Of a stretch of 64,000 bases of DNA, positions 2,582-38,859 are shown in pieces (the first letter of the stretch is position 1; each line of letters begins with the position of its first letter). The translations under genes and the position numbers were made by a program. Under the pieces are notes generated by a model that was given only the letters and a program-made list of their open reading frames with translations, did no database searches and was not told where the DNA came from. The DNA is from Oscillospiraceae bacterium (lineage in GTDB: Bacteria > Bacillota > Clostridia > Oscillospirales > Ruminococcaceae), in NCBI GenBank assembly GCA_021203065.1, contig JAJQBX010000021.1, positions 62,001-126,000 on the forward strand, given 5' to 3'.

Positions 2582-2590
2582 ACCATTCAA

Positions 2591-2616: not shown

Positions 2617-2648
2617 TGCCCTTTTGCATGGGCAGAAAGGAGAATGTT

Positions 2649-3065: not shown

Positions 3066-3077
3066 GGAGTGAAGACC

Positions 3078-3787: not shown

Positions 3788-3804
3788 GAAAGGGGCGTTT
3801 TGCT

Positions 3805-7683: not shown

Positions 7684-7710
7684 GTGATTGAAAAAGAGAG
7701 GAGCAGACAG

Positions 7711-11297: not shown

Positions 11298-11301
11298 CCG
11301 A

Positions 11302-23301: not shown

Positions 23302-23330
23302 TTGACAATCATAAGAAAGTGTGCTAAAAT
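23302..23330 (+). promoter_or_regulatory. Near-consensus promoter without a downstream gene
   Basis: TTGACA, exact 17-base spacer, TAAAAT. No credible coding frame follows within 300 bases; instead hairpins and T-rich stretches are found at 23360-23460. Confidence 0.65.
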
Positions 23331-23336
23331 TGAAGC

Positions 23337-23400
23337 GTCAGGTGTTGATATGCCTGAATCTGCGGGGGGTAGTGCCTCCGGCACACTTTATTTTTATGTT
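23337..23400 (+). ncRNA. Candidate small RNA in the gap before the GTPase operon
   Basis: Starts 6-7 bases after the -10 element. A GTGCC/GGCAC hairpin at about 23373-23386 is followed by TTTATTTTTATG, like a terminator, giving a transcript of about 60 bases. A second G/C-rich region before CTTTTTATTTCC at about 23450 may be a back-up terminator. This is the main content of the 774-base gap 22890-23664 besides the UPF0489 remnant. No known RNA family was recognised. Confidence 0.35.
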
Positions 23401-23663: not shown

Positions 23664-25523
23664 ATGCTGATGTACGAAATATCTGACAGCATAGAAGCCA
23701 TAGGCGGCATTATCGATGAGCTGCCTGTTGATGCCGACAAGGTTTCAGATTTCAGAAAGCAATACCAGAAAATATCGCTCCGAAGCAGAAATCCCAACTT
23801 CTATCTCTCAGCGATAGGCGATTTCAGTTCCGGCAAGAGCACCCTTATCAACACCCTCATCGGTCAGAAGCTTCTGAAGGTCGCATTTGCCGCAACGACG
23901 GCAGTTCCGACGTATATTTACAGAGGAAGCGGAGACCAAGTGGCAGTCAGAGCCAAGTGCGATAATGGCGAATGCTACGAAATCACTTCTGACGACGGCG
24001 TAAGGGATTTTGAGGAGGAATTCGGAGTCAGGCTTCCCGAAGAACTTGACGACAGGATTTCTCTTCTGACAGCCGACAAGGACCTTTCGCCGAGAATCAG
24101 AGAGGTTGACATCGAGCTGCCGGACGGCTCTCTTTCAGGCGGTCTTTGCATAATCGATACGCCCGGAGTCAATCCCGGAGCCGATTACACCGGGGCTCAC
24201 GCTGAAATCACCAAGAATATCCTCAACGAGGTTGCGGACGCAATAATCGTTCTCTTCCCGGCTGATCAGGCGTATACCCAGTCGTTTGATGAGTTTCTGA
24301 AGGCTAATGCGGAATACTTTATCAAGGACGCAATCTTCGTGGTGACTATGATGGACCGAGTCGACGAAGAGGAAAGAGACGAAGTAATCCAGTTCGTCAA
24401 GGGAAATCTTCGGAGCAACTTCCATCTTGAGAATCCGCAGGTTCTTTCCTGCTCCGCAATGATGGCTGGAAGAGATCCATTCTGGAAAGAGGATTTCGCC
24501 AAGTTTGAGCGAGACCTCATGCAAAGGCTTGCCGACAACCGCAAGCGGATAGTCACCGAACGATTGGCGAAGCTTTCAGATGAACTCCTCGACTCCATCC
24601 AGAGCGAGGTTGCTACCAGCAAGTGTAGCTTCGAGCAAAGGCTCACAGTCCTCGAAAGCCACTCCGTTCCGAAGCTTGACTCACTTCTTGCCGACAGCGT
24701 AGCCGAGGCGGCAGGGAAGCTGACAGACATAAAATCAAGGCACGACGACGTGTTCATGAATAACAAGATGTACCTTGAGAGTAAAATAATGTACAAAGTC
24801 AGCACTTCGCTGAATTCCTGCACTACGAGGTCGGATATAACCAAGTATGTCAAAGGCTCAATGACGCTCGACATCGAGGAAGCCTGCCGTGACGTTTACA
24901 ACACTTCCGGAAAGTTCACAGGCGAGCTTAATGAAACACTCAACTCCGCAATCGTCGGAATGATTGAAGACCTGAGGACATATTACGGCGAGATCGGCGG
25001 AATTCTGGCAGAAGACACCTCGCTCGCAGCGTCTGAGGAGCGTGCAGCCATAGCCGACAAGTTTGAGGGTCTTGACAGCCTGATCGGCAATTATGAGACC
25101 AAAATAGACGCTGCTATATCCGTCGGAGGCGCAGGTCTTGCCGTACTTGTCTTTGGTCCTGCCGGAGCGATAGCTGGAGGTCTTGTAGCACTTGTAGCAG
25201 GAGATCGGCTCTTCGTCGGCTCAACACGTGACAAGGTAAAAGCCTCCGTTTCGGAGAGAGCTCCCGAGATTTCGGAGTCGGTCATTCAGGGGCTTTGCGA
25301 CAAAATGCAGTCGGATTATACCGAAGCCATGACCGAGCTTCAGGTAAAAAAGAGAGCTTTCTTGGAGCAATACCAGCCGGTCTACGAACAGCTTGAAAAA
25401 CAGCTTAATGACGAAAAGCGGGAGCTGACGAGGAAAATACAGCTCAGCGAACAAATCCAGAACAGAATAACAGTAGTATTGTCAGAGTTAAACCAGATTC
25501 AAGGAGGAATCATTGATGAATGA
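23664..25523 (+). CDS. Dynamin-like GTPase 1
   Basis: 619 residues from ATG 23664 (AAAGGA upstream; ATG 23670 is also possible). GTPase motifs: G1 GDFSSGKST (about 52-60), G2 Thr in AATTAVPT, G3 DTPG (about 165-168), and G4-like TMMDRVD (about 229). A long helical stalk region follows, with a hydrophobic paddle-like segment at about 480-515 (VGGAGLAVLVFGPAGAIAGG) expected to insert in the membrane, then a C-terminal helical return (ELQVKKRAFLEQYQ). This is the bacterial dynamin-like architecture; such proteins bind and reshape membranes. It overlaps GTPase 2 by 8 bases (ATGAATGA), implying stoichiometric production. Confidence 0.85.
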   Translation: MLMYEISDSIEAIGGIIDELPVDADKVSDFRKQYQKISLRSRNPNFYLSAIGDFSSGKSTLINTLIGQKLLKVAFAATTAVPTYIYRGSGDQVAVRAKCDNGECYEITSDDGVRDFEEEFGVRLPEELDDRISLLTADKDLSPRIREVDIELPDGSLSGGLCIIDTPGVNPGADYTGAHAEITKNILNEVADAIIVLFPADQAYTQSFDEFLKANAEYFIKDAIFVVTMMDRVDEEERDEVIQFVKGNLRSNFHLENPQVLSCSAMMAGRDPFWKEDFAKFERDLMQRLADNRKRIVTERLAKLSDELLDSIQSEVATSKCSFEQRLTVLESHSVPKLDSLLADSVAEAAGKLTDIKSRHDDVFMNNKMYLESKIMYKVSTSLNSCTTRSDITKYVKGSMTLDIEEACRDVYNTSGKFTGELNETLNSAIVGMIEDLRTYYGEIGGILAEDTSLAASEERAAIADKFEGLDSLIGNYETKIDAAISVGGAGLAVLVFGPAGAIAGGLVALVAGDRLFVGSTRDKVKASVSERAPEISESVIQGLCDKMQSDYTEAMTELQVKKRAFLEQYQPVYEQLEKQLNDEKRELTRKIQLSEQIQNRITVVLSELNQIQGGIIDE

Positions 25524-27069
25524 AAAAATTTACGACATGCTGAACGAGCTTGCAGACAAGGCAGGATGTTCAGCGGAAAAGGAAGCCTACAACGAGGTCC
25601 GCACAATGATGCAGGAAAGCTCCATAAAGCAGTATGCAATCCTTGGCGATGTCAATTCCGGTAAGAGCACGATAATCAACGCCCTTGCAGGAGAAAAGAT
25701 ACTTCCTGCAACAGTGATGGCAAACGAGCACGACAACGTAGCTTTCGTCGAGTCGGGCGAGCACCAGTGCCGCTGGGTTGAACTGGCTCTTGAGGCATAT
25801 GCGGGAGGAAAGACAGCCGACGTTAAGTCTCCTCTTTGGTTCATGGATGCGGCTGTCTATGTCTTCTCAGCCACCGCTCCGTTCTCACAGCAGGATGTCG
25901 ACGCCATCAGGGCATGTATCGCCCATGGAGTGCCCTGCTCGCTGGTTGTCGGAAAGATAGACGTGGTTGATGAGGCGGAGAGAAGCGAGGTCATCTCTTA
26001 TGTCAGAGCTCAGGCTGAGCGTTTCTTCGGAACGGATTCGGTAATTATAATCAACGCTAAAGATACCGAAGCCACAAAGCAGGCGATTCTTGGCGAATTT
26101 GCCTCCGCAGAGGATAGCCGTGACATCCGTGAGTATATGCTGGCGGTGAGCTATGCAAGAACGCTCAAGGAAAATATCACGAAAAAATATGAGGAGGCAA
26201 AGAAAAATATGCAGGCAGTTACCAACAAGGAAGCCAAGACCAAGCAGGATATTCTGGGCAGGAAGATTGTGTGGGACGGAATCGAGCTTGAAATCGAGTC
26301 CCGCAAGATGAGGCTCATTGAGGATATGTCGGTTGAAATGAACCGCCTTTACTCCGAGTGCATCGCTCATCTCACCGACAGCGCAATGCAGGCTAAGTCC
26401 CCGAAGGATTGGTGGGAGAAGTCGCTCGAGGATGAGTTCGGAAGAGAAATCACCAGCATTTCAAACCAGATTGACAGAATGATCTGCTACCGTGTCGCAG
26501 GAGACAGAGACTGGCTCGTCCACACCGTTGAGGAGAAATTCGGCTCACAGCTTTCAATCGATACCTCCAATACCAAGGCGCAGCTTGAAAGTGCCATGTT
26601 CGGTCTGGCTCCCGAAAAGCTGAACGACGTCAGCAAGGGAAAGAATATCGCAATAGCAGGCTTGGCTGTCTCATCGGTTGCCCTTTGCGCAGTTTTAGCC
26701 TACCCGGTAATCACAATGCACGCCGTCAACATCCTTTCGTGGGCAGTAGCTGGAGTTGCAGTAGCGGGAACAGGCTTCTGGACATTCATGGAGACAAAGA
26801 AGGACCTTGGCGAGAAGCATGAGTGCCTCAAGTCTGAAATCGCAAGATACATCCTTGGAAGCCGTGATGACAACATCGAAATCCTGAAAAAGAATATCGA
26901 GTACGGCTATGACAACATGAACATCTCCATTCAGGATCTCGAGATGGCAACCACCAAAGCACCCGCAAGCAAGGACGACAAGAAGACCTATGAGGACTTT
27001 AAGACCTTATCCGATTTGAATCGCAATTGCGATGAAATAGTAAACTCGCTTCTTTCCGAAGCAAAATAA
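25516..27069 (+). CDS. Dynamin-like GTPase 2 with degenerate G3
   Basis: 517 residues from ATG 25516 (AAGGAGG upstream). G1 GDVNSGKST (about 44-52) and G4 VVGKIDVVD (about 145-153) are intact. The region that should hold G3 DxPG reads ADVKSPLWFMDAAVYVF, with no DxxG, and the G domain is shorter than in its neighbours. A helical stalk follows, then two hydrophobic segments at about 375-420 (IAIAGLAVSSVALCAVLAY, ILSWAVAGVAVAG). It probably binds nucleotide but hydrolyses it poorly, acting as the partner subunit of a heteromer, as in tandem pairs such as Campylobacter DLP1/DLP2. 21 bases separate it from GTPase 3. Confidence 0.8.
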   Translation: MNEKIYDMLNELADKAGCSAEKEAYNEVRTMMQESSIKQYAILGDVNSGKSTIINALAGEKILPATVMANEHDNVAFVESGEHQCRWVELALEAYAGGKTADVKSPLWFMDAAVYVFSATAPFSQQDVDAIRACIAHGVPCSLVVGKIDVVDEAERSEVISYVRAQAERFFGTDSVIIINAKDTEATKQAILGEFASAEDSRDIREYMLAVSYARTLKENITKKYEEAKKNMQAVTNKEAKTKQDILGRKIVWDGIELEIESRKMRLIEDMSVEMNRLYSECIAHLTDSAMQAKSPKDWWEKSLEDEFGREITSISNQIDRMICYRVAGDRDWLVHTVEEKFGSQLSIDTSNTKAQLESAMFGLAPEKLNDVSKGKNIAIAGLAVSSVALCAVLAYPVITMHAVNILSWAVAGVAVAGTGFWTFMETKKDLGEKHECLKSEIARYILGSRDDNIEILKKNIEYGYDNMNISIQDLEMATTKAPASKDDKKTYEDFKTLSDLNRNCDEIVNSLLSEAK

Positions 27070-27090
27070 AATAACAGAGGAGATACGATT

Positions 27091-29202
27091 ATGAACACAG
27101 CAGTATTCAAGGAAACAGTAACCCAGCTTGACGAACAGCTCGACAAGCTTCTTGCGATAGCTGAGAGCACCGGCACTCAGCAGGACGTAGTGGAGCAGGT
27201 TCTTGAACTCAAGGAGAAGAATCAGGGCAAGGACTTCAAGGTTCTCGTAATGGGAGAATTCTCCACCGGCAAGTCGACGATGATAAATGCGCTCATCGGC
27301 GAGCCTATTCTTCCCGAAAAGGCAGTCACAGCGACAGCCATCATCACAGAAATCAAGTATGGCGAAGAGAAGAAAGCCGTCATCTATCCCATCCCCGGCA
27401 AGTGGAAGGGCGGAGACGAGCCGTTTGAAGTGCCGGTGACAGAATTAAAGAAGTATCTTCTTATCAACCACAACATCAAGGACGCCAAGGAAACTCAGGA
27501 GGAAATAAACCACCTCATCAACGGCGTCGAGGACAGGGAAGAGGACTCCCATCAGGAGGGCAACGTCATCGCTTCTCCGTTCGAAAGAGCTGAGATATTC
27601 CTGCCTCTTGACATCCTCAAGGACGGCGTCGAGATTATCGACTCTCCCGGTCTTAACGACCCTGCAAGCCACGGTGACATCACCCATAACTATCTCCCGA
27701 ATGCTCATGCAATCATCTTCTGCATGAGCGGTCACAGGGCATACTCCCTCACGGAAAAGGAGACCCTTGAAAAGCTGAATTCGATGAGATACACCACCCC
27801 GATATTCGTGGTTACATATTTCGACCAGATCTGCGCCAATATCGATGACGGCGATAGAGAGCCCGAGGAAGTGGAGCATGAAATCGATCAGTTCAAGAGA
27901 ACCGTCTGCGCAGACATTTCAAAGCACACAGACCTTGTGAATGAGCAGTACACCTCGCTTCTCGGCGGCAACGGAATCTTCTTCGTCTCTTCACGTGACG
28001 CAAAGAAAGCCAAGCACTCCGATCCTTGGAACGACGAGCTCTACGAGCAGTCAGGCTACAAGGCATTCGAGAGCTATCTGAGCGACTACTTGGTCAAGTG
28101 CAAAGGCAGCGAGCTTTCAAAGATGATTGTCGAGGGCATAAGAGTTGCCGGCGTCGAAGCCACCAGAAGCCTCAACGAACAGTATAATGCCGCCGACCTT
28201 TCGCTCGAGGAATTTGAGCAGAGGATGGAGGAGGTTCAGGCTAAGATGGAGTCTGCCAAAGCTCAGGCTGACCTCTTCGTAAAGAGCTTCGATATTGAAC
28301 TCAGTAAGGTTTTGTCCGACCTCAAGACCACCTGCCGTCAGCTCCCAAAGGACGCCTATGCTCAGGTTGACAGCTGGAAGAGCTCCTACAAGTGCTCTGT
28401 AAAGCAGGAGGTTCTTCACCCGAAGAGAACTGCAGAAGCCATCGCAAAGGAATTTGAGATGCATATGCAGAACCAGTACGAGAGCTTTGCACTCGAGTGG
28501 TCAGAAAACGTTCTCAAGCCGGAAGTAACCGAGAAGATGAAGAAAATCGGCGAGAAGCTCGAGGGCAGAGCAAAGGACCTCGATGCCACCATCAACGACA
28601 TCAAGACCGGTCTTAACCTGACCCATTCCTCTCCCGACGAGCTCAGCTCCACAACCTCCAAGGTTGTATCTGTCATCTATGGCTTGCTTACGTTCGATGT
28701 AATCGGAGCAAGCTCCGGTGCTGCAGTCGGAATGAGCGGTCTCATTCAGGGAATTGCGGCTAATATCGGCATAAATCTCGTAGTTATGGCTATTCTCGGA
28801 TCTACTGTCGGTCTTCCGGGTCTTCCGATTGTTATCGCCGGTGAGATTGTTCAGATTCTTATTTCCGGAACAAGAAACAAGGAGATCATCAAGAAGAAGG
28901 TCTGCAACAAGATTGTCGAGCAGTATAAGAAGGTTCTTTCTGAGCCGCAGGAAGTGGACAAGCTTGTAGACAACATGTATTCTCAGCTTCAGGAGCAGTT
29001 CGCCACTCTCAGCGATGGTGCCAAGAAAGCGACATTCTCAGACATCGAGAAAATCCAGCTCGAGTCCGAGCAGCTCCTCGAAGACAAGAAGAACGGTGAG
29101 CAGGCAATCAACGAGCGTAAGGAGAACATCCAGAAGTGGATTTCGGAAATCAACGAAATCGTCGAAACCTCCTACAACATCCGCAACAACTCATTGGCAT
29201 AA
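27091..29202 (+). CDS. Dynamin-like GTPase 3
   Basis: 703 residues, GAGGAG upstream. A full bacterial dynamin-like protein: G1 GEFSTGKST (55-63), G2 Thr in AVTATAII, G3 DSPG (184-187), G4-like VVTYFDQI (241-248). The insert at about 105-165 is Lys/Glu-rich. The stalk has long heptad-like helices (about 370-420), and the hydrophobic paddle spans about 540-600 (SGAAVGMSGLIQGI, LPIVIAGEIVQILISG). The longest and best-conserved of the three and probably the main membrane-active subunit. A strong hairpin follows before the regulator gene. Confidence 0.9.
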   Translation: MNTAVFKETVTQLDEQLDKLLAIAESTGTQQDVVEQVLELKEKNQGKDFKVLVMGEFSTGKSTMINALIGEPILPEKAVTATAIITEIKYGEEKKAVIYPIPGKWKGGDEPFEVPVTELKKYLLINHNIKDAKETQEEINHLINGVEDREEDSHQEGNVIASPFERAEIFLPLDILKDGVEIIDSPGLNDPASHGDITHNYLPNAHAIIFCMSGHRAYSLTEKETLEKLNSMRYTTPIFVVTYFDQICANIDDGDREPEEVEHEIDQFKRTVCADISKHTDLVNEQYTSLLGGNGIFFVSSRDAKKAKHSDPWNDELYEQSGYKAFESYLSDYLVKCKGSELSKMIVEGIRVAGVEATRSLNEQYNAADLSLEEFEQRMEEVQAKMESAKAQADLFVKSFDIELSKVLSDLKTTCRQLPKDAYAQVDSWKSSYKCSVKQEVLHPKRTAEAIAKEFEMHMQNQYESFALEWSENVLKPEVTEKMKKIGEKLEGRAKDLDATINDIKTGLNLTHSSPDELSSTTSKVVSVIYGLLTFDVIGASSGAAVGMSGLIQGIAANIGINLVVMAILGSTVGLPGLPIVIAGEIVQILISGTRNKEIIKKKVCNKIVEQYKKVLSEPQEVDKLVDNMYSQLQEQFATLSDGAKKATFSDIEKIQLESEQLLEDKKNGEQAINERKENIQKWISEINEIVETSYNIRNNSLA

Positions 29203-29211
29203 TAAAATCTG

Positions 29212-29247
29212 CCCAAGGCACCCGGCTTCCGGGCTGGGTGCCTCGGG
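29212..29247 (+). other. Intercistronic hairpin between GTPase 3 and LytTR gene
   Basis: CCCAAGGCACCC pairs with GGGTGCCTCGGG with one mismatch around a 12-base centre. No T run follows, so it is more likely an mRNA-stabilising or partial attenuation structure than a full terminator. Confidence 0.6.
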
Positions 29248-29263
29248 GAAAACGGTGATTACT

Positions 29264-29983
29264 ATGGATATTTCGGTCTGCGTATATAGCACAGATAAAA
29301 ACGAAGCGGAAAACCTGCAACGATATATCGCTGCAGTTCTGTTCAATGCGGACTATCGGTCGAGGGTCATGTCCTGTTCGACCGATTCGGTATTGAGAAG
29401 CGTGACGATGAAATATCCATTTGTTGATATTCTCTTCCTGCCGGCGACCGCATCCGGAATCAGCTTCGGCGAAGAGCTGAGAAAGGTCAACCGCACAACA
29501 ACGATAGTGTTTGTGTCCGACGACGACAGGAACGTTTTCCGGGCTTTCCGCTCACTTCCTATAGCATACCTTATCAACAACCATGACAAAAAACAGCTTT
29601 CTGAGGCGATTTTAAGAGCCGCTTCGTGGGCGATGGCAGGAAAATCCGTCTTTTACCACGAATCGAGAACCCAGATACTTCAGCTTAAATACAGAGATAT
29701 AGACTACTTCGAAAGTGAATATCGCATTGTTCACATCCATAAGTCGGATGGCGAGTGCGAGACGATAACTGCAAAGCTCGATGAGGTCGAAGCCATGCTT
29801 CCCGCAAACATCTTCTGCAGATGCCATCAGAGCTATTTAGTAAACATTGAAAACATAGACAGATTCAATAAGTCTGACAAGACGGTAATTTTTAAGTCGG
29901 GTGCAATAGTTTTCTCAAGCAAGGCACGGTACCAGACCCTGATAGATGCACTGAAGGGAGATGCGATTTGTGAAACCGTTTGA
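29264..29983 (+). CDS. LytTR DNA-binding regulator with degenerate receiver domain
   Basis: 239 residues from ATG 29264; GTG 29255 is an alternative. Residues about 1-125 have the receiver-domain pattern, but the phosphoacceptor strand reads FVDILFLPATASG, so the Asp at the end of beta-3 is Pro. The conserved Thr/Lys end is also weak (YLINNHDKK). Residues about 130-235 are a LytTR domain (ILQLKYRDIDYFESEYRIV, CRCHQSYLVNIENI), which binds direct repeats. A regulator that is not switched by phosphorylation, probably for this operon. Overlaps the next gene by 14-23 bases. Confidence 0.85.
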   Translation: MDISVCVYSTDKNEAENLQRYIAAVLFNADYRSRVMSCSTDSVLRSVTMKYPFVDILFLPATASGISFGEELRKVNRTTTIVFVSDDDRNVFRAFRSLPIAYLINNHDKKQLSEAILRAASWAMAGKSVFYHESRTQILQLKYRDIDYFESEYRIVHIHKSDGECETITAKLDEVEAMLPANIFCRCHQSYLVNIENIDRFNKSDKTVIFKSGAIVFSSKARYQTLIDALKGDAICETV

Positions 29984-30599
29984 AATTACGAATAAAAAAG
30001 ATGAACTGAAGAACGCAAATGGCGAGATTATCGGAATTCTTCCTGTGCCGACAGACGAAATGCTCGAGGGGCTCAGAATACAGACGGTAAACGGTTCTGG
30101 CATGGAAAGACTTAGCGTCATAACAAACATAGAAGAGGATGAGACAGAGGAGGATGAGGGCTGGCAGTTCAGCGAAATCCCTGCCGATGTCACCCGGCTC
30201 ACCGTTGAGAGAATAATGCATGAGCTTGCCGGAGAGGGCTGGTTTGGCTTCAACAAGGAGGACGGCTACAGCATCTCTGACATAATTGAGCTTCTCTCGG
30301 AAAGGACCTTTGTCCAGCTTTCCGAACTCACCCTTGCAAACATAAGAGCCTGCCTTGGCTCGGGCGGAAAGGTTATTGCATATTTTCCTGACCTCGTGTG
30401 GAGGGAATATTTCGGTCAGCTCCCGACACTTCCGAGCGAAGTCTTGGGAATGAGGGTGGTCGAGATAGCAGAAATAGACAACAACGACGAAATCACTGTC
30501 AACGACCTTTCAGATGCCGACGGAGAGGGAAAGAGAATCGACAAAGGCTCTTTCGAATGGCTCTCCAAGGACGGCTGGATGCTGGAGGTGTACAAATGA
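29970..30599 (+). CDS. C39-peptidase-like protein lacking catalytic residues
   Basis: 209 residues from GTG 29970 (AAGGGAG 9 bases upstream; ATG 29961 is also in frame). The second half has the layout of C39-like peptidases: IRACLGSGGKVIAYFP, then GMRVVEIAEIDNNDEITVND, GEGKRIDKGSFEWL and WMLEV. In active members His precedes the VVV strand and Cys opens the domain; here the His place is Met-Arg and no aligned Cys is seen. If the fold call is right it would be a pseudo-peptidase, perhaps a peptide-binding subunit. Overlaps the next gene by 4 bases (ATGA). Confidence 0.5.
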   Translation: MKPFEITNKKDELKNANGEIIGILPVPTDEMLEGLRIQTVNGSGMERLSVITNIEEDETEEDEGWQFSEIPADVTRLTVERIMHELAGEGWFGFNKEDGYSISDIIELLSERTFVQLSELTLANIRACLGSGGKVIAYFPDLVWREYFGQLPTLPSEVLGMRVVEIAEIDNNDEITVNDLSDADGEGKRIDKGSFEWLSKDGWMLEVYK

Positions 30600-31060
30600 A
30601 TAATTACACCGATTTCAAGGAATGGCTGAGCGCAGTGAGATATTCCCGCAATGTCAGTATGCTCATTCCGATGGAAGCATGTATGGGCTATCCGGTCGCC
30701 GTAAAGCAGGGTGAAGAGTTCATCCTCCCGTTTTTCCGGGTTGCCTCAACCAAGAACATTGACAGGCTTTCACCGCCATTCTGCTACATAAGAATCAGCT
30801 ATCCCTCCGGGGTGATACTGACATATAACAACCTAAGAACTCTTCCCGACTGGGAAGATGTCGATTGGAACAGTACTCTTGACAACACCGATAGCGGTGA
30901 AAGAACGCCGAAGCTTGACCGTTACTACCGGGCACTTTCCGGCTGCTCATCTGCGCCGCCGGATAATGAACAGCTTGACCGGTTGCTTCTTGGCAGCCTC
31001 AGCCAGCCGCTTTCAGAATGGTACGAAAAACTTATTGCGGAAGCAAAAAAATACAGATAA
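30596..31060 (+). CDS. Unknown protein of the GTPase/HerA operon
   Basis: 154 residues; start ATG 30596 in the ATGA overlap with the gene before, GGAGG upstream. Soluble, mixed alpha/beta with a Pro-rich centre (DRLSPPFCYIRISYPSG) and a helical end (SEWYEKLIAEAKKY). No family recognised. Its tight coupling to both neighbours makes it an integral part of the system. Confidence 0.7.
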   Translation: MNNYTDFKEWLSAVRYSRNVSMLIPMEACMGYPVAVKQGEEFILPFFRVASTKNIDRLSPPFCYIRISYPSGVILTYNNLRTLPDWEDVDWNSTLDNTDSGERTPKLDRYYRALSGCSSAPPDNEQLDRLLLGSLSQPLSEWYEKLIAEAKKYR

Positions 31061-31073
31061 GGGGAGTTTAGTC

Positions 31074-31802
31074 ATGAAGATTATTGAGCTATTCATCAGA
31101 CCGTTTGCAAAAGAAAACGAAGTAAAAACCAAGCTGATTGTGAATAACAGGAGCAAAAAAGAAGAGATAACCAGCAAGGACAACCGACTGACAAGCCTTG
31201 TCGTCAATCAGCCGATGAGAAAGTGGCTGACTCCCTACAAGAAGAAGCTGTTCGTGTGGGAGGGCTTCCTGCCGGAGATAATCGAGGAGTTCAACGACAG
31301 CTCCCTGAGCTTCGTATTCCACGGCTGTAAAGCGGACTACGCCATTTTCAAAAAGACAATCTGCGAACAGCAGGAAAAAATCAACCGCAACGGTGAAACG
31401 GCGCATGTCGAATTTGCAAAATTCAGAGAGGATAAGTGGAGTCCCGACGGCGGCATGGAAATCCTGACAGAAAGCCTTGACACAATGCGTTCTGTAGCCG
31501 AAGACTGGAGCGACGACGACCTGATAGATAAGATAGATGAACTGAAAGCCGAAATTGGCGGGCAAAGCGTCAGACCAGTTCCCGATGATACTGCAATCCA
31601 TGAGGTTACCAAGGCTTTGCTCGAAGAATACGGAAGCGAAGACCCAAGCGAAATCGAAAAATCCTGCTATCTATATGCATTTCCCGATGCGGCAGAAAAG
31701 GTATACGGTATATGGTTGAGCTTCGCCGACCGCAGTACAAACGAAAAATTGGCTGACATCCCCGCAAAGATTGAAGCCGTATTTGAAGATAAGAAAGGAT
31801 GA
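31074..31802 (+). CDS. Unknown protein preceding the HerA-like ATPase
   Basis: 242 residues with AGGGGAG upstream of ATG 31074. No membrane segments. The N-terminal 140 residues are beta/alpha (KLIVNNRSKKEEI, LSFVFHGCKADYAIF), and the C-terminal 100 are acidic helices (ALLEEYGSEDPSEIEKSCYL). It overlaps the ATPase gene by 4 bases (ATGA), so it may be the dedicated partner of that ATPase. No nuclease or protease motif is visible. Confidence 0.7.
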   Translation: MKIIELFIRPFAKENEVKTKLIVNNRSKKEEITSKDNRLTSLVVNQPMRKWLTPYKKKLFVWEGFLPEIIEEFNDSSLSFVFHGCKADYAIFKKTICEQQEKINRNGETAHVEFAKFREDKWSPDGGMEILTESLDTMRSVAEDWSDDDLIDKIDELKAEIGGQSVRPVPDDTAIHEVTKALLEEYGSEDPSEIEKSCYLYAFPDAAEKVYGIWLSFADRSTNEKLADIPAKIEAVFEDKKG

Positions 31803-34800
31803 ATACCAGTATGAGCGAGAAAAATGAGTTAGCCCTGCAGGAGCCAAAGAATACCGAAATAACCCCAAACGATGAGAAATTGGCAGTTGCGCTCAATACA
31901 GCGGACACGCTTATCCGGATGAAGTATCTTTCTGAGCTTGACAAGATGGAAATCGTTCCTCTTTCAAAGAAGGAAATGGCTATAGCTCCCGAATCAAAGG
32001 TCCGCCTTTACCACATAGGTTGCCTTACCTATGACGAAAAGGAGAGCATCTCCGACAAGCTTTCCGGAGTGTTCAATTCTATTGCCGGCTACGACGCCAC
32101 AGCTGTATTTCTTCTCAGGCATGACGGAACAAAGACAGACCTATACATGGGCACTGCCTGCGACGACCCGCAGAAGGTTCAGCTTGCTTCAAGAACATTT
32201 TCCCGTGCCCTTTCCGGCAATTTCCCCGGCTGTATTTCCGAAAGCAAAACCGAATCGGAGGTCAAGGAGCTTCTTGACGAGGTGATGGACTATGGCAGTG
32301 ACGACCCGCTGGCTGTAGCCTCCATTTCGAGCATCGCTTCAACAAGAGGCGATGGCGAGACCTATCTTCAGGGAATGGAAAAGCTGGTCGACGGCATGAA
32401 CGGAGTGCCTTTCAACCTTGTAATTCTGGCGTCAGCTCTGTCGCCGCAGACCATCTCTTCGGTCAAGAACGGATATGAGAACTTGTATACAGAGTTAGTT
32501 CCGTTCCACAAGATGAGCGCATCGCTATCTGACACCGACAGCGAGAGCTTCTCCCGTGCAATAGGTGAATCTGTTTCTCAGACGGTCACCAAGTCGCAGG
32601 GAACAAGCGAAAATCAGTCGGACACCACCGGCATGTCACGCACTCTCACAAGAACCAAGCAGGATGAGAAGTCCAAGAAGGACAAGGCAGTTGACATCTT
32701 TGCGGCGGTTGCAGGTGTTGCCGGCTCTATTGCAGGTGCAGTAGTAGGTACGGCGTTCGAACAACCGTTTGTCGGTTCGTCAATAGGCAGCAACATTGGC
32801 GGAACTATAGGCAAAGCGGCACAGACAATGATCCAGTCGCCCGGCGGAAGCAGTTCAGAGGGTACTTCGGATAATTCGAGCATTTCAATCAGCAAGGGCA
32901 AGAATTATAACGAGAGCGAAGCAAAGGGCAAGACTGACACCACAACCGATACCATGGGCGACACCCATTCAACCGGACGGACAATGCAGTATTCGATGGA
33001 GAATCGGACGGTTGGCAGTCTTCTCTCCTCAATCGATGTCCATATCGACCGCCTCACCGCATGTGAGGGCAACGGTGCATTCCAGTGTGCCGCATATCTG
33101 ATGGCGGCGGACCAGCCAGCCGCAGTAATGGGAGCAAGCCTCTACCGTTCTCTTCTCACAGGCTCTTCTCCCGAAGCGAGCGTGTCATACGTCAACGTAT
33201 GGCAGGATCATGACGACACAAGAAAGCTCTGCGACTACTTCAAGCATATGAAGCATCCACGCTTCTCAAGCGGCAACGAGCTCTTGGGAGAAGTCACTGC
33301 GACGACAACCACCTCTTCGATGGAGCTTCCCCTGCACTTTGCTTGGCCGAGAAAATCCCTCCCCGGTCTGATGGTGGCATCCCATGCGGAGTTTTCACGT
33401 GACATTATAAAGCGTTCTGAGGACGACAAGGGCGTCGAAATCGGCAACATCACCCACATGGGCAGTGTGAGCGACACGAAAGTCAGCCTGTCCCTTGGCG
33501 AGCTGAGAAAGCACACATTCATTGCCGGTCAGCCCGGCTCAGGAAAGTCAAACTTCTGCTATGTCCTCCTTGACAGACTTTCAAAGCAGGGTGTGCACTT
33601 CTTGGTTGTTGAGCCTGCAAAGGGCGAATATTCGACAGTATTCGGCGGCAGGGAGGATGTCAACGTATACGGAACCAACTCTAAATATGCTCCTCTTCTC
33701 TCGATAAACCCGTTTGCATTCCCCGACGGAATCGATGTCCTTGAGCATATGGACAGGATAATCGAGGTATTCAACGCAAGCTGGCCGATGTATGCCGCCA
33801 TGCCTGCAATTCTCAAGGATGCACTTGAACAGGTCTATGTCGAATGTGGCTGGGATCTTCTTTCAAGCACATGCTCATACTATCCGCCCAAGTTCCCGAC
33901 ATTTACTGACCTCCTTAACATACTCCCGAGAGTAATCAGGGAGGCGGCGTACTCGGAGGAAGTAACAAGTAACTATGTTGGTTCACTTGTCACCCGTGTC
34001 AAGTCGATGACAAACGGCATCTGCGGACAGATATTCTGCTCCGAAGAAATAGACAATAAAAAGCTCTTCGATGAGAATACAATCATCGACATAAGTAGGA
34101 TCGGCTCTGGCGAAACAAAGGCACTGATAATGGGTATTCTCATCATCCGGCTTCAGGAGCACCGTTCCTGCAACAGAGACGGTATAAATCAGGAGCTTAA
34201 GCATGTAACGCTTCTTGAAGAGGCTCACCACCTTTTACGTGCAACATCCGGAGCACAGTCGATGGAGAGTGCCAACGTCCGTGGAATGTCGGTTGAAATT
34301 CTCACCAATGCAATAGCCGAAATGAGAACCTATGGCGAGGGCTTCATTATCGCCGACCAGACCCCGTCAATCATGTCGGAAGCTGTAATCAGCAATACCG
34401 GTTCAAAGATCATCTTCCGCCTGCCGAATATCAGGGACAGAACCCCCGTCAGCGAGGCAGTTTCCCTCAACTCCTCTCAGGTCGAGGAGATAGCAAGACT
34501 CGACACCGGTGTGGCGGTTGTCCACCAGAGCGGATGGCTGAGCCCTGTTCTTTGCAAGATCGACCTCTTCCCGCCGGAGAGCTATTGCCCTCTCGACTAT
34601 CACCCGACAGAAGTTCCAAAGGAGTTTTTGTTAAGAGCAAGAGGCATCTTCTTTGAGCTGCTCCTTTCAAAAAATATGAAAACTGACCCACCGTCGGAGC
34701 AGTTCTGCCTTGACGCAATCAGATTCCTTGGAATGAGTCTGTACCAGAGCGACAAGAAAATGGCATCTCTCATCAAGGGCTACTTGGGTTCCGGCAGTAT

Positions 34801-35059
34801 GGACGCATGGAGCTCGTTTGACGAGCTGTGCCGGGTTGTGAAAGATACTCTGAATACGGACAAGCTCTTCACCCCGTTCCCGAGCGATCCTGTAGAATGG
34901 GACAAGAAAGCAAGGGAGTATCTTTCAGGCTGCCTCGATGCATCCGGCAACACGGTTGACACTCTTCTTGCCACCCTGATAATGAGCAGGAATGCTACCA
35001 ACCCCCGGGCAAAGCAATTCTTCTTCAAATGGCGCAGCAGGGAAAAGTCATCCGACTAA
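31799..35059 (+). CDS. HerA/DUF87-type ATP-binding protein, 1086 residues
   Basis: A large ATPase; start at ATG 31799 in the ATGA overlap (ATG 31811 is also possible). Walker A GQPGSGKSN (577-585) and Walker B VTLLEEAHH (803-811), followed by IIADQTPS and the sensor region IIFRLPNIRDR, give a HerA/VirB4-like motor. The N-terminal 270 residues are a separate alpha/beta domain (YHIGCLTYDEKES; SRALSGNFPGC). Residues about 300-345 are a Gly/Ala-rich hydrophobic stretch that could cross or touch the membrane, flanked by Ser/Thr-rich segments. The C-terminal 200 residues are helical. HerA motors usually pair with a nuclease or effector; here the linked genes are GTPases and a metallopeptidase-like protein, so its load may be protein or membrane-associated DNA. 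Confidence 0.9.
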   Translation: MNTSMSEKNELALQEPKNTEITPNDEKLAVALNTADTLIRMKYLSELDKMEIVPLSKKEMAIAPESKVRLYHIGCLTYDEKESISDKLSGVFNSIAGYDATAVFLLRHDGTKTDLYMGTACDDPQKVQLASRTFSRALSGNFPGCISESKTESEVKELLDEVMDYGSDDPLAVASISSIASTRGDGETYLQGMEKLVDGMNGVPFNLVILASALSPQTISSVKNGYENLYTELVPFHKMSASLSDTDSESFSRAIGESVSQTVTKSQGTSENQSDTTGMSRTLTRTKQDEKSKKDKAVDIFAAVAGVAGSIAGAVVGTAFEQPFVGSSIGSNIGGTIGKAAQTMIQSPGGSSSEGTSDNSSISISKGKNYNESEAKGKTDTTTDTMGDTHSTGRTMQYSMENRTVGSLLSSIDVHIDRLTACEGNGAFQCAAYLMAADQPAAVMGASLYRSLLTGSSPEASVSYVNVWQDHDDTRKLCDYFKHMKHPRFSSGNELLGEVTATTTTSSMELPLHFAWPRKSLPGLMVASHAEFSRDIIKRSEDDKGVEIGNITHMGSVSDTKVSLSLGELRKHTFIAGQPGSGKSNFCYVLLDRLSKQGVHFLVVEPAKGEYSTVFGGREDVNVYGTNSKYAPLLSINPFAFPDGIDVLEHMDRIIEVFNASWPMYAAMPAILKDALEQVYVECGWDLLSSTCSYYPPKFPTFTDLLNILPRVIREAAYSEEVTSNYVGSLVTRVKSMTNGICGQIFCSEEIDNKKLFDENTIIDISRIGSGETKALIMGILIIRLQEHRSCNRDGINQELKHVTLLEEAHHLLRATSGAQSMESANVRGMSVEILTNAIAEMRTYGEGFIIADQTPSIMSEAVISNTGSKIIFRLPNIRDRTPVSEAVSLNSSQVEEIARLDTGVAVVHQSGWLSPVLCKIDLFPPESYCPLDYHPTEVPKEFLLRARGIFFELLLSKNMKTDPPSEQFCLDAIRFLGMSLYQSDKKMASLIKGYLGSGSMDAWSSFDELCRVVKDTLNTDKLFTPFPSDPVEWDKKAREYLSGCLDASGNTVDTLLATLIMSRNATNPRAKQFFFKWRSREKSSD

Positions 35060-35183
35060 AAATGCGCCTTGAAGTGCCGAAAATACAGAAATCCGGTTTT
35101 ATTATGTCGGATCGTGCTATACTCTGTACATCACAAGCAAGCAAAACCACATTCAAATACAAAATCTATTGGAGGTAAAAACA

Positions 35184-35492
35184 ATGACTACCAACGAAAT
35201 CATCAACACATTAGCAGAAGACAAGAAGCTTGACCGTGTTCAGCTTGAAAAGGCAGCTCCCAAAATAGATGCCCTTTCACCCGACATCAAGGAGGCTCTT
35301 GAGAACTGGATCAGTACCGACGTTATCGAAAGCCCCACCTACTCCGGCTACGACGTAAACGCCATCCTCAAAGCTCAGCCGTTTATGACCGTGTTCGGCG
35401 CATATCTCTCCCTCGACTGGCTGAGAAGAGACCCGAAAACCGCCCAGAAAGCTCTTTCACGCAAGACAACCGTGTTGAGAGTCGACAAGTAA
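35184..35492 (+). CDS. Small protein, unknown
   Basis: 102 residues with TTGGAGG upstream of ATG 35184. All-helical prediction, Lys/Asp-rich, with LDWLRRDPKTAQKAL near the end. TATACT at 35118 may be a -10 element, so this gene may start a second transcript covering the metallopeptidase/radical-SAM part. It has no Cys and so is not an obvious Cys-rich substrate of the maturase. Confidence 0.7.
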   Translation: MTTNEIINTLAEDKKLDRVQLEKAAPKIDALSPDIKEALENWISTDVIESPTYSGYDVNAILKAQPFMTVFGAYLSLDWLRRDPKTAQKALSRKTTVLRVDK

Positions 35493-35534
35493 CCGGCAAT
35501 CCGGCGTTAAGTTAAAATACAGGAGGTTAATATA

Positions 35535-36449
35535 ATGTTTGATTTAGGCAGTATTTTTGGTAACATATTCCCGTTAATCGGATTAGCCAAATATTTCGGC
35601 GGTAAGGATGATGTGACAGAAATCCACAACGACGAAGGTATCGAGTACAGCAAAGAAGAGCTTGAAAGGGTAAGCGATGTTTCGGACGTCATGGGCGAGG
35701 TGTTCACCGACGATATAATCTCAAATTGGGAGAACTTAAGCGATGATGAAAGAATAGGCTATATTAACGAGTACTTGGATAAAGCCGGAGAAACCCTCGG
35801 CATCGAGGTCGGAGATGTAATTATCGAAGATTTGCAGGCGAAGTATGGCGAAGGCACAATGGGCATGAACAACGGCGACGGCAACGTTTATATCGACATC
35901 ACCCGTCTTGATGACCTTGAGGATTTGCTGACAACCACCACCCATGAGATGCGGCATCAGTTCCAGAAAGAGGTCATGGAAAATCCTGACGCATTCCCGG
36001 GCATTTCTGATGAGACAATCGAACAGTGGGAGTATGAATATTCCAATTACATAAAGCCGGGTTACGATTATGAGGGCTACTACAATCAGGCTATCGAGGC
36101 TGATGCAAGAGCGTTTGCTGACGAGGTTGTTTCTGATTTCCTGATCGATAAGGGCGTGGAAGAGCTGTCTGTGGAAGCTCCCGATTCCCCGGAGGCATTT
36201 GAAGCTGAAATGGAAACCGACGCAGATGAAGCGATGGCTTTGTCGGATGAGGTCGCAGATGCTTCTTTTGAAGCCGATTCTGAGACGAATTTAGAGCAGG
36301 CAGAAAACCTTGATGGAAGTAACAACTCCGATGTCGGTGTTTCTGTCGACGACGGACTCAACAAGGGCGAAACCACCGAAACATTCTCAAACGGTGCATG
36401 TGACAAGCTTTGCCTCAAGTGCAAGGTTGAAGTCGGATTCCGCACCTGA
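35535..36449 (+). CDS. HExRH metallopeptidase-like protein with C-terminal Cys tail
   Basis: 304 residues, AGGAGG upstream. A short hydrophobic N-terminus (LGSIFGNIFPLIGLAKYF) is followed by a domain with TTHEMRHQFQ (HEMRH 137-141) and AIEADARAFADE (Glu188), the zinc-binding pattern seen in toxin-like metallopeptidase domains of Firmicutes polymorphic toxins and phages. Residues 205-285 are acidic and disordered. The last 18 residues contain three Cys (GACDKLCLKC, C-x3-C-x2-C) after a Gly-Ala step. The radical-SAM maturase starts in the overlapping TGATG, so I infer that the Cys tail is its substrate. That link is a hypothesis. Confidence 0.75.
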   Translation: MFDLGSIFGNIFPLIGLAKYFGGKDDVTEIHNDEGIEYSKEELERVSDVSDVMGEVFTDDIISNWENLSDDERIGYINEYLDKAGETLGIEVGDVIIEDLQAKYGEGTMGMNNGDGNVYIDITRLDDLEDLLTTTTHEMRHQFQKEVMENPDAFPGISDETIEQWEYEYSNYIKPGYDYEGYYNQAIEADARAFADEVVSDFLIDKGVEELSVEAPDSPEAFEAEMETDADEAMALSDEVADASFEADSETNLEQAENLDGSNNSDVGVSVDDGLNKGETTETFSNGACDKLCLKCKVEVGFRT

Positions 36450-37818
36450 TGGCTGCCATGGATAACGAGTCACGCTCTGTTCATCCGGTTGTGTTCCGTT
36501 CCTCGTCTGGTCGGTACTACGCCTATGACCCGTTTACGAACAGAATCCTGACCATAGACTCTTCGAAATATCAGGGCGTCGATGAAGCAACCGCCGCCCA
36601 AGATATTCTGAGATACTTGGAGGAAAGCGGAATCTGTAAGACAGGAAACTTTTCCGGTGCAAAGTGGAAGAACCCGACAGCCTCCGGCGTCAGAACCAAG
36701 CCGAACACGCTGGTGCTGCAGCTGAGCTGCAGATGCAATCTTGCATGTGAATACTGTATTTATTCAGGAAACTACAGTCACATGCAGGAGCATCATGACG
36801 AAGATATGTCGACTGAAACCCTCATCCGCAGTATCGACTATTTCGCAGAAAATTCTGCGGATGAGGGAAAGCTCAAGATAGCTTTCTATGGCGGGGAAGC
36901 ACTCCTCTGCTTCGACAAAATCAGGAGTGCCGTCAGCTATGCAAGAAAGAAAATGCCTAGGCGTCAGCTCCTGTTCTCAATTTCCACCAACGGCACAACG
37001 CTTACGCCCGAGGTTGTCAGATGGCTTGGTGACAATCCGGATGCAAAGGCGACCATCACCATAAACGGCTATGACCACGACCGCTACAGAAAGACGATAA
37101 GCGGCAAGGGAAGCCTGAAAATAATCATAGACAGGCTTGAGTACATCAAGGCTAACTATCCCGACGTCTGGCGTAACCAGATCAGCTGTATAGCAAATAA
37201 GGTTTCGGACTCTGAGAACGAAGCCATCATGGACTATTACAAGGAGCATGTAGGCATGCCTCCGGAAGCTGTCACAAAAATCCGTGAGGACATGGGAAAC
37301 GAGAAGATTGCGGATATACTTTCAGGCGACCATTTCGGTTCGCAAGGCTCTGATCTGTATGAAAGATACGTAACCGGCTCGGATCCGTTTGTCGATGCTT
37401 TCTATGACCCGAAGGTGTTCGTCATCCATGACAGAAGATTATATTCCGGCGACGACTTTGCATATGTCCCGAGCTGTGTTCCTACTGCTACAAGGATATT
37501 TGTCCGTGCCGGAACATCTGCGAGCGTGTAAGCGACCAGCTCTGTATCGGCGGCATTGACTCTGGATTTGATGAGCCGAAGCTTCAAAGCCTTTGTCAGG
37601 AGTTCACGCAGTTTGTCGGGCGCAACTGCCTTGACTGCTGGGCACAGCGGCTATGTGCGTTCTGCTATCAGGATGTCATCGACGAAAACGGCAACATGAT
37701 TGAAAGCTTTCCGGAAGCATGGTGCGAAAACTCCCGGAAAGGGGCAGTTGAGAGCTTGGTGCTCTACTGCGATCTTGCAGAAAATCGTTACAGCCATCTG
37801 GGAGAGCTCAACCCCTGA
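36449..37818 (+). pseudogene. Radical SAM/SPASM peptide maturase, single frameshift
   Basis: Frame 1 runs 36449-37531. It has an N-terminal peptide-recognition-like part (HPVVFRSSSGRYYAYDP) and the radical-SAM motif C96-x3-C100-x2-C103 in CRCNLACEYC, with a further Cys94, then FYGGEALL. After about 37465 the -1 frame continues a Cys-rich SPASM domain (CPELCSYCYKDICPCRNIC; NCLDCWAQRLCAFC) to a stop at 37818; these ligate auxiliary 4Fe-4S clusters. Restoring one C in CCC at 37468-37470 gives about 456 residues, a usual length for Cys-rich-peptide maturases (CcpM-like). If the frameshift is real the enzyme lacks its auxiliary clusters and is probably inactive; a sequencing deletion is at least as likely. 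Confidence 0.8.
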
Positions 37819-37853
37819 TGGCATGAAAACCAATATCTAAGGAGGAAATTATT

Positions 37854-38408
37854 ATGGCATTTTGCGGAGGATGCGGAGCAAAGGTTGAAGAGGGCATGAA
37901 GTTCTGCCCCGAATGTGGCAAGAGTCTTATCAAGACTGAGCCGGTGCAGGATGAAGCAGTCAGCGAGAAGCCCGAAACCACTGAGCAAGAGGTCAGGACT
38001 CCCGAGGCTGAAAGTTCTGCGGCTGAGACTCCAGAGGTCAGGACCCCGGAGGTTAATACAACAACGAAGCCTGAAATTCAGGAGGACGGAATAAAGAAGT
38101 ACAGGGTTCATATTTCCCGTCCGTCAAGCTTCGTCGGCTGTGCCATGGCACTCAGAATTCACATTGACGGCAATCAAAAGGAATATGTGCTGAAAAGCGG
38201 TGAATCAATGGATGTAGCTCTGACAGCCGGCACCCATTCTATAGAAGTCGGCATGACCGCCGTTTTCAAGAAGACCAAAGCCACGTTCACAGTTTATTCC
38301 AACAGAAAGCTCACCTGCCGCCTGAACCTCAAAGGCACCGCCACCAACGGTCTCCTCTCCGGACCGGCAATCATTGAGGACGAAAAGGGCAAGAGGATTT
38401 CGTACTGA
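37854..38408 (+). CDS. Zinc-ribbon protein with C-terminal beta domain
   Basis: 184 residues, AAGGAGG upstream. N-terminal zinc ribbon FCGGCGAKVEEGMKFCPECG (two CxxC pairs, residues 4-23). The middle (about 30-80) is Pro/Glu/Thr-rich linker with repeats of ETPEVRTPEV type. The C-terminal 100 residues form a beta domain (VHISRPSSFVGCAMALRIHI, GTHSIEVGM) resembling PEGA-like surface or scaffold domains. Probably an adaptor for the operon products. Confidence 0.75.
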   Translation: MAFCGGCGAKVEEGMKFCPECGKSLIKTEPVQDEAVSEKPETTEQEVRTPEAESSAAETPEVRTPEVNTTTKPEIQEDGIKKYRVHISRPSSFVGCAMALRIHIDGNQKEYVLKSGESMDVALTAGTHSIEVGMTAVFKKTKATFTVYSNRKLTCRLNLKGTATNGLLSGPAIIEDEKGKRISY

Positions 38409-38550
38409 GCTCTTACCCACAGCATCGGCAGTCACGATCCCCGAAAGACAATTCTCACCGAGGAAGAATTTGTGTCTGAGCTTATGAAGCTGCGGGGTTG
38501 CCTGAATAGGCATGAGTGATTTTATCCTGAAACATATTGAGGTGAAAAAT

Positions 38551-38859
38551 ATGGTCGAAATAAAGGCGAAAATTGACGATCTGGATTATGCGAATATCAT
38601 CAAGGTTGCTTTCCCGATTATCAAGAAAAAAGCGGAGAGTGAGACAGCGGCTTGGGCAATGGTGGTAAGAAGCATCAACGAGCCGGACGAGAGTACAATC
38701 AAGAGCCTTCTTGGTCTTATTCCCGACAGTGTAAAGGACAAGCTCGTCCTGATGGCACTTGAAAGGTATAAAGAAGAAATCCCCACAGCCCTCACCTCCT
38801 TGGCAGCATCCAAGGGGCTTAAGCTTAATGTCAGGGATGTGAGTATCAGTTTGAAGTAG
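38551..38859 (+). CDS. Small helical protein, unknown
   Basis: 102 residues from ATG 38551 with GAGGTG 6 bases upstream; the in-frame ATG at 38512 lacks a ribosome site. Amphipathic helices (IIKVAFPIIKKKAESETAAWAM) and a final beta-like LKLNVRDVSISLK. No family recognised. The 140 bases before it hold a short open stretch (TILTEEEFVSELMKLRG) without a start, perhaps a gene remnant. Last gene of the cluster. Confidence 0.65.
   Translation: MVEIKAKIDDLDYANIIKVAFPIIKKKAESETAAWAMVVRSINEPDESTIKSLLGLIPDSVKDKLVLMALERYKEEIPTALTSLAASKGLKLNVRDVSISLK

Follow-up and report, generated by a model that had tools for sequence, protein, structure and literature searches.

The window analysed here is a stretch of 64,000 nucleotides from an Oscillospiraceae bacterium, and our subject is a cluster of genes on its + strand, at positions 23664-38859, which encodes three dynamin-like proteins, a HerA-like ATPase, a protein with an HExRH motif preceded by a small protein (u102), and a radical S-adenosylmethionine (radical-SAM) enzyme, together with several accessory proteins (Table 1). 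A first-pass annotation of the DNA had named this gene set and had read it as one system, possibly a defence or contact-dependent device whose effector is matured by the radical-SAM enzyme. The genes are indeed present and linked, and they do overlap, although by 1-23 bases as calculated from the coordinates rather than by the 1-8 bases given (LytTR and u212 overlap by 23 bases, dyn1 and dyn2 by 11 or 8 depending on the start codon). For the label of C39-like pseudo-peptidase given to 29961-30599 (u212), no match was found in Pfam, NCBIfam or PADLOC. Comparison across genomes shows the dynamins (usually two, here three) and the HerA-like ATPase to be a conserved module, followed by genes predicted to encode exchangeable toxins and immunity proteins. 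We favour, with moderate confidence, the explanation that this is a polymorphic toxin system built on its own dynamin-HerA chassis.

Table 1. Genes of the dynamin-HerA cluster in the window; lengths in amino acids (aa), values after family names are E-values.
Gene	Position	Strand	Description
dyn1	23664..25523	+	dynamin-like GTPase, 619 aa; Dynamin_N 3.6e-19 (Pfam)
dyn2	25513..27069	+	dynamin-like, 518 aa; Dynamin_N 1.8e-6, P-loop region only
dyn3	27091..29202	+	dynamin-like GTPase, 703 aa; Dynamin_N 7.1e-28 (Pfam)
LytTR-domain regulator	29258..29983	+	241 aa; LytTR 4.8e-18 (Pfam)
u212	29961..30599	+	unknown accessory protein; no Pfam, NCBIfam or PADLOC match
u155	30593..31060	+	unknown accessory protein; nothing above cut-off in Pfam
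u243	31071..31802	+	unknown protein immediately 5' of the ATPase
HerA-like ATPase	31799..35059	+	1086 aa; DUF87 (HerA central domain) 1.1e-11, residues 546-681
u102	35184..35492	+	102 aa; probable immunity protein of the HExRH cargo, by linkage only
HExRH metallopeptidase-like cargo	35535..36449	+	304 aa; acidic linker and Cys-bearing C-terminal tail
radical-SAM core, CcpM-like maturase	36449..37531	+	Radical_SAM 2.7e-15; frame ends early (frameshift)
radical-SAM C-terminal part	37534..37815	+	other frame; no Pfam match alone
zinc-ribbon protein	37854..38408	+	Zn_Ribbon_1 1.4e-6; membership uncertain
u115	38512..38859	+	115 aa; possibly part of the system

A Dynamin_N domain was found in all three of the proteins annotated as dynamin-like GTPases, but in dyn2, which keeps the P-loop, the D[ST]PG (G3) motif is missing, and it is likewise absent from each of the 8 proteins in the dyn2 cluster. 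The P-loop and the DTPG/DSPG motif are both present in dyn1 (as DTPG) and dyn3, which carry the Dynamin_N domain, P-loop and switch motifs by which bacterial dynamin-like proteins are recognised; dyn3 matches one such protein, 2j68, at 5.2e-30. In PADLOC, which gives no cut-offs, the matches are weak: dyn3 to LeoBC (2.4e-23), dyn1 to LeoBC and LeoA (8e-14) and dyn2 to LeoBC only (9.4e-8). For the ATPase, PADLOC ranks HerA models highest, again weakly and without cut-offs, and against NF042943, the model for HerA anti-phage ATPases, it scores 58 bits with a cut-off of 800, below the equivalog level. A strongly hydrophobic stretch occurs in each of the three dynamins (in dyn1 from residue 493) and in the ATPase, where it is glycine-zipper-like and starts at residue 298; the ATPase has in addition an N-terminal half with no family match and a HerA core. 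Among 63 aligned ATPase rows the Walker A glycine and lysine columns and the EEAH motif are invariant, and the hydrophobic stretch reaches the threshold for a membrane segment in 27.

Scanning 84,980 species genomes with the ATPase gave 464 relatives, the best 80 of which are the loci analysed here (designated L with a number); the set therefore favours close ATPases. These 80 loci span several phyla, with Bacillota (Clostridia, Bacilli, Negativicutes), spirochaetes (Brachyspira, Treponema), fusobacteria (Leptotrichia) and gammaproteobacteria among them, and relatives also lie on plasmids typed as conjugative. Dynamins were counted in the 62 of 81 loci (the 80 and the window) that have at least 5 kilobases of upstream sequence, with a profile built from the dynamin clusters of the same loci. 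A dynamin-like gene lies upstream on the same strand in 56 of the 62, and two or more do so in 54. Pfam checks covered the window's three dynamins and members of clusters c13 and c23; in L040 and L049 a member of the divergent cluster c13 (one member of which is Dynamin_N by Pfam) lies upstream and had been missed by the overlap rule, and in L060, L072, L078 and L100 no dynamin-like gene was found upstream. The commonest order among the 80 is an optional WYL-like regulator, two dynamins, a small hydrophobic protein, the ATPase, a toxin and its immunity protein, and on gene content the set of three dynamins, LytTR and radical-SAM is a local variant. L024, L025 and L026 keep the window's order of three dynamins, u243, ATPase, u102 and HExRH, L026 without the LytTR, u212 and u155 genes. 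The co-occurrence check suggested in the first-pass annotation therefore bears out one system: with the same gene order in L024-L026 and the dynamin-ATPase core in 56 of 62 loci, a chance neighbourhood is ruled out. In a quick ATPase tree the window falls in a side branch of nine (SH-aLRT 99), the same nine loci that have u243, whose homologues stand at the equivalent position in the 8 loci other than the window.

The ATPase is uncommon in the genomes sampled, being found in 13 of 295 in an order-level sample (at E 1e-20) and in 8 of 398 in a phylum-level sample (at E 1e-60), the window's own genome included in each. Eight loci of the order sample beyond the window have ATPases of at least 40% identity (L111-L118; L111 is probably the same locus as L059), and a recognised dynamin is present in seven and a recognised toxin in seven. 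An annotated plasmid of Escherichia coli TW10590 encodes two dynamins, a hypothetical protein, an ATP-binding protein, an HNH/ENDO VII nuclease and an SMI1/KNR4 protein; annotated plasmids of Lactococcus cremoris and Treponema saccharophilum have a comparable layout, and on pRUMAL01 of Ruminococcus albus the ATPase is followed by a 515-aa protein with no match above cut-off. By megablast, the operon DNA of the E. coli locus L104 was found in one of 5,426 E. coli genomes, that of L104 itself.

Judged by their domains, the genes after the ATPase are exchangeable toxin-immunity pairs. The first downstream protein has at least 95 residues in 78 of the 80 loci, and 74 proteins were scanned as cargo (L035, L060, L086 and L101 were dropped, and the second gene was taken in L024-L027 and L068). 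Pfam families among the 74 were Colicin-DNase (34) and WHH (33), matches that fall largely on the same proteins in a shared cluster, followed by LHH (9), DNA/RNA non-specific endonuclease (4), glutamine-deamidase toxin (3) and HNH (2). For the proteins after the cargo we used 62 of the 70 second-downstream proteins, dropping L024-L027, L029, L061, L067 and L074 and substituting another gene in L060, L068 and L101; these gave SUKH_6 (31) and SMI1_KNR4 (31), which are overlapping families, DUF6985 (11) and a YezG-like immunity protein (1). An adjacent immunity gene, as expected of polymorphic toxins, is thus present in the family, and in the window it is probably u102, by linkage only. In 24 of 79 loci the overlap between the ATPase gene and the first gene downstream is exactly 4 bases, and in 47 of 79 the two genes at least touch. 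In L162 and L163 two toxin-immunity pairs are stacked. No Sec-like hydrophobic stretch was seen within the first 60 residues of any of the 74 cargo proteins, none of the 10 Pfam families found in them (E 0.001) is a trafficking domain of Zhang et al., and WXG/LXG families were absent from the cargo and from the scanned window proteins.

The cassettes differ between close relatives. ATPases that are 63% identical are followed by an LHH cassette in L034 and an NS_2 cassette in L055; at 64% identity L046 has Colicin-DNase and L061 glutamine-deamidase, at 59% L044 has Colicin-DNase and L063 LHH, and at 71% L087 has a protein of cluster c15 (provisionally REase-like) and L091 Colicin-DNase. The same toxin class is retained in many close ATPase pairs, and a quick tree of 63 ATPases, 56 of them labelled by class, implies at least 19 changes of class. 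Toxin classes in the swap, N-terminus and tree comparisons are cluster labels, two of them provisional: c15 'REase', whose representative matched only below cut-off, and c28 'C39' (E 0.016). The first 60 residues of 52 cargo proteins in seven classes were then compared between members of different classes, each pair against 20 shuffles; the pairs are not independent. Where the ATPases share at least 55% identity, 13 of 26 toxin pairs beat all 20 shuffles (about 1.2 expected), and the corresponding figures are 33 of 128 at 45-55% (6.1 expected), 43 of 404 at 38-45% (19.2 expected) and 31 of 395 below 38% (18.8 expected). The best pair, L061 (glutamine-deamidase) and L072 (NS_2), scores 95 over 45 residues, where the maximum of 20 shuffles is 29. 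Because unlike toxins have similar N-termini when their ATPases are close, a putative docking region seems to stay with the chassis through changes of weapon. For the family, rather than for the window's cargo taken alone, this amounts to variable toxin domains behind a common N-terminal region. A single fixed motif, hxx[LMA][DN]xP[ILFVM], was also tried; it occurs in 15 of 74 toxin N-termini (shuffle mean 0.37, maximum 3) and in 1 of 62 immunity-side proteins, but it covers a minority and was picked after viewing the sequences, so the N-terminal claim rests on the lineage-matched comparison.

In the window, the position held elsewhere by toxins is occupied by the HExRH protein. Its HExRH and ExDARA residues are invariant in 5 aligned rows and, as motifs, are consistent with a zinc metallopeptidase-like protein; Pfam gave only DUF3920 and DUF7167, both below cut-off. 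The genomic contexts of this protein were covered in 14 matching genomes, with seven further matching genomes left out. In three loci of other genomes (L138, L162 and L163) an HExRH gene follows another cargo gene of its operon, separated from it by one small gene, and the two proteins have an N-terminal region in common, within their first 85 residues, with scores of 96, 88 and 67, respectively; the shuffle maxima are 63, 60 and 50, and 0 of 1000 shuffles reach each score. The remaining parts of these pairs are less alike (scores 24, 30 and 42). The partner in L163 matches the NS_2 profile, and those in L138 and L162 are HNH-type by eye. With relatives whose N-terminal region recurs in a nuclease-type toxin encoded alongside them, the HExRH protein of the window also looks like toxin-type cargo. 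A u102-like gene adjoins the HExRH gene in all 10 ATPase-linked loci (the window, L024-L027, L135, L138, L159, L162 and L163; profile E-values in the last five are 1.7e-25 to 3.9e-5) and was found in none of the 9 loci where an HExRH-like protein lies away from the ATPase (L136, L137, L139-L142, L160, L161 and L164). On this linkage, u102 is probably the immunity protein of the HExRH protein. A search of viral contigs for HExRH relatives gave 39 pattern matches, none of them a relative, and a PDB search with the HExRH alignment gave one match at E 0.38, which we took as chance.

The HExRH and radical-SAM genes overlap by one base, so that no precursor gene lies between them. A Radical_SAM domain supports the annotation of a maturase, but the gene is broken by a frameshift: its frame stops at 37531 and the C-terminal part runs on in another frame to ~37815, this piece alone matching the C-terminal ends of the radical-SAM proteins of L024 (34%, 1.4e-14) and L026 (35%, 2e-17). 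The frameshift is either a mutation or an assembly error and, since the maturase gene is frameshifted in the assembly, the window's cargo may now be unmodified. Against TIGR04068 (CcpM) the window's core scores 172 bits (1.7e-50) and does not reach the cut-off of 500, and the uninterrupted proteins of L024 and L026, at 229 and 235 bits, are likewise below it. CcpM is the best match in L024 and L026, and PapB in L025, which has a different tail. Across the 81 loci and 28 further stretches the radical-SAM profile matches only in the window, L024, L025 and L026, with no match in L159-L164, and exactly these four HExRH proteins carry an acidic linker together with a Cys-bearing tail; in the remaining six ATPase-linked HExRH loci neither the tail nor a radical-SAM gene was found (in L159 the contig stops 1,352 bases past HExRH). 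C-terminal cysteines are not rare, with at least two in the last 35 residues of 13 of the 74 cargo proteins, and the four tailed proteins form one clade and so represent about one origin. From this pattern we infer that the Cys-bearing tail of the HExRH cargo is the substrate of the radical-SAM enzyme. The effector may be matured by this enzyme, as had been proposed, given the co-variation of tail and enzyme, and this would concern a small sub-lineage (4 of 81 loci).

On a Planktothrix plasmid (L145, 11887-14345), the third gene after a related ATPase encodes a protein with a HEIGH motif and a Cys-rich tail; this protein matches PF15890 and PF07737 below cut-off, and the next gene encodes an MbnB/TglH/ChrH (DUF692) enzyme (PF05114, 2.9e-26). 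An Anabaena plasmid (L146, 11891-15261) carries a close copy, with one gene between the cargo and DUF692 genes, and we count the two as one case. The arrangement parallels the radical-SAM one of the window, and by analogy the enzyme would modify the tail here too.

Because the genes after the ATPase appear to be exchangeable toxin-immunity pairs, the contact-dependent half of the earlier description of the cluster fits better and the defence half less well. As a whole the first-pass interpretation is upheld in part: one system stands, and the proposals on maturation and on defence or contact do so only partly. We infer that the toxin is delivered out of the cell. HerA ATPases form rings that pump substrates. 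The toxin would be made in the cytoplasm and held by its immunity protein, and its N-terminal ~45-85 residues would dock on the ring-forming ATPase, which would strip it of the immunity protein and pump it. The dynamins would tether, bud or fuse the membrane, letting the toxin out by way of a vesicle or a contact site and into rivals without the immunity protein. In the window the cargo would be the HExRH metallopeptidase-like protein and u102 its likely immunity protein; cross-links in the cargo's Cys-bearing tail, made by the radical-SAM maturase, would perhaps have aided stability or entry into the target. LeoA has been linked to vesicle-mediated release of toxin, two vesicle markers falling by half in leo deletions (PMC4159319), and a bacterial dynamin pair tethers membranes in vitro (PMC6104087). 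More tentatively, and with rather more doubt than belief, we suggest a new class of secretion system, in which a HerA-type ring ATPase would load exchangeable toxins through a short N-terminal docking region and dynamins would carry them across membranes, some lineages having a RiPP-like (ribosomally synthesised and post-translationally modified peptide) toxin tail made by a radical-SAM (the window) or MbnB/TglH-type enzyme (L145, L146). If true, this would be a toxin-delivery chassis made of dynamins and thus a definite role for bacterial dynamin pairs, which mostly have no settled function, and it would add protein toxins with enzymatically modified tails.

Several observations weigh against a delivered polymorphic toxin. 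The N-terminus of the window's own HExRH protein matched that of no other toxin, the link being made through relatives in three loci; no candidate for a surface or outer-membrane component was noticed, and no search was aimed at one; and about one third of the 74 cargo proteins gave no match to any of the four main toxin families. Among relatives of the ATPase, some are accompanied by toxin and immunity genes without a recognised dynamin (L118, L120) and others by a dynamin without a recognised toxin (L115, L119). Finally, genes of cluster c4, one member of which matched WYL, lie upstream in 26 of 55 loci, and defence genes occur near some loci (McrC-type genes adjoining L143, csm6 in L144), both of which suit defence.

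The main rival, unlikely in our estimation, is an intracellular abortive phage defence, in which the dynamins and ATPase would sense damage or phage DNA and free the toxin from its immunity protein in the same cell. Predicted conflict systems include HerA-like ATPases encoded next to a sirtuin or an endoDNase (PMC9503650), and LeoA/LeoBC and HerA models are the best PADLOC matches of the dynamins and ATPase, but these matches are weak and without cut-offs. SUKH and DUF6985 partners and repeated swaps of toxin class are, moreover, typical of polymorphic toxins, and the stacked pairs of L162 and L163 also argue against defence. Even as defence, a dynamin-HerA sensor with an exchangeable cassette of effector and immunity genes is not known to us from elsewhere. 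Distinctly improbable is a separate RiPP or bacteriocin cluster, made of the HExRH and radical-SAM genes, beside an unrelated dynamin-HerA cluster. The enzyme is CcpM-like, of a family named for Cys-rich peptides, and was found in four of 81 loci, but a related ATPase accompanies the HExRH-u102 pair in 10 loci, 6 of which gave no radical-SAM match, HExRH relatives in three loci have an N-terminal region in common with other cargo, and the one-base overlap leaves no space for a precursor gene. Least probable is that the dynamins and ATPase serve membrane repair or vesicle formation in general, with toxins inserting beside them as passengers. The in vitro tethering mentioned above, the divergent dynamins of L040 and L049 and the finding of none in L060 would suit this, but the first downstream gene often touches or overlaps the ATPase gene, and toxin N-termini follow the ATPase lineage.

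Returning to the polymorphic toxin explanation, the ATPase-cassette link may be the deeper one, with dynamins as the commonest partner, because some ATPase relatives have cassettes without recognised dynamins. In L120, LHH and SUKH are accompanied by a TNT-domain protein. L135 (5070-13332) encodes two proteins that are Hsp70-like by eye, a small zinc-ribbon-like protein, a HerA-like ATPase, HExRH and u102 but no recognised dynamins, and on this gene content is a chassis variant. No recognised cassette was found in the distant loci L110, L119, L122 and L123; L110 (6051-11410) lies in the window's own genome, on contig C15, and has a second, distant HerA-like ATPase followed by 164- and 634-aa proteins and no recognised toxin. 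An Exiguobacterium plasmid (L143, 280-12057) carries UvrD-type helicase and PD-(D/E)XK genes, a 658-aa protein, the ATPase, a WHH toxin and a SUKH gene; the 658-aa protein matches the dynamin profile at 2.7e-21 and its N-terminal start is u243-like by eye.

Polymorphic toxin systems as described by Zhang et al. (2012), in the sections available (PMC3482391), are alike in their shared N-terminal trafficking region, exchangeable C-terminal toxin domain and adjacent, often SUKH, immunity gene, but among at least eight secretory modes given there none has dynamins or this HerA-like ATPase, and the cargo here is small. Several dynamin-like proteins per operon are found also in LeoABC/Eleos, to which profile matches are long but weak. 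Eleos has a role in defence. LeoABC/Eleos, with the vesicle-associated toxin release to which LeoA is tied, differs in that the dynamins here are coupled to a HerA-like ATPase and toxin-immunity genes. Type VII secretion (YueA/EssC-type) likewise has an FtsK-HerA superfamily ATPase serving polymorphic toxins, in the same sections of PMC3482391. The window's system differs from it in having dynamins and in giving no WXG/LXG match in the scanned proteins. Whereas the Type VII secretion ATPase has three cores, the window-type ATPase has one. The HerA systems with sirtuin or endoDNase also place a HerA-like ATPase next to a DNase gene, but in the available part of PMC9503650 they are two-gene systems, and here there are dynamins, an immunity gene and exchangeable effectors. 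CcpM/PapB maturases are comparable in the radical-SAM/SPASM enzyme beside a Cys-bearing tail, but the likely substrate here is the tail of a ~300-aa metallopeptidase-like protein and not a short peptide, and the scores are below cut-off. Our literature search, with most subscription papers and preprints outside it, found no system combining dynamin, HerA and polymorphic toxin and nothing joining dynamin, HNH endonuclease and toxin-immunity; within the portions of the sources available, dynamin with polymorphic toxin led to Neisseria meningitidis only, and radical SAM with polymorphic toxin and RiPP to nothing related. Within the literature so covered, the dynamin-HerA toxin system is apparently undescribed.

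Among the accessory genes, LytTR has counterparts at the equivalent position in L024, L025, L028 and L041, u212 has homologues in L024, L025 and L028 and weakly in L041, and u155 in L024, L025 and L028. Small proteins of c2 type lie upstream in 52 of 75 loci, and 56 of the 63 c2 proteins reach the hydrophobicity threshold for a membrane segment. At the 3' end, u115 has homologues 3' of the ATPase in L028 and L029, and its cluster also has a member from L025; the zinc-ribbon protein has no counterpart in L024-L026 by tblastn. An Rfam scan of 21000-42000 gave nothing at gathering score, and at 23302-23384, ~330 bases before dyn1, there is a promoter-like match (11/12) followed by a terminator-like hairpin, both of them scan matches only. 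Three consecutive large serine-recombinase-like open reading frames at 7684-12918, after phage-like genes at 1101-5160 (read from translations), suggest mobile DNA 5' of the cluster. Immediately after the cluster, at 38964-39824, lies a gene for an Rpn family PD-(D/E)XK nuclease/transposase, and similar genes occur in L052, L054, L056 and L097.

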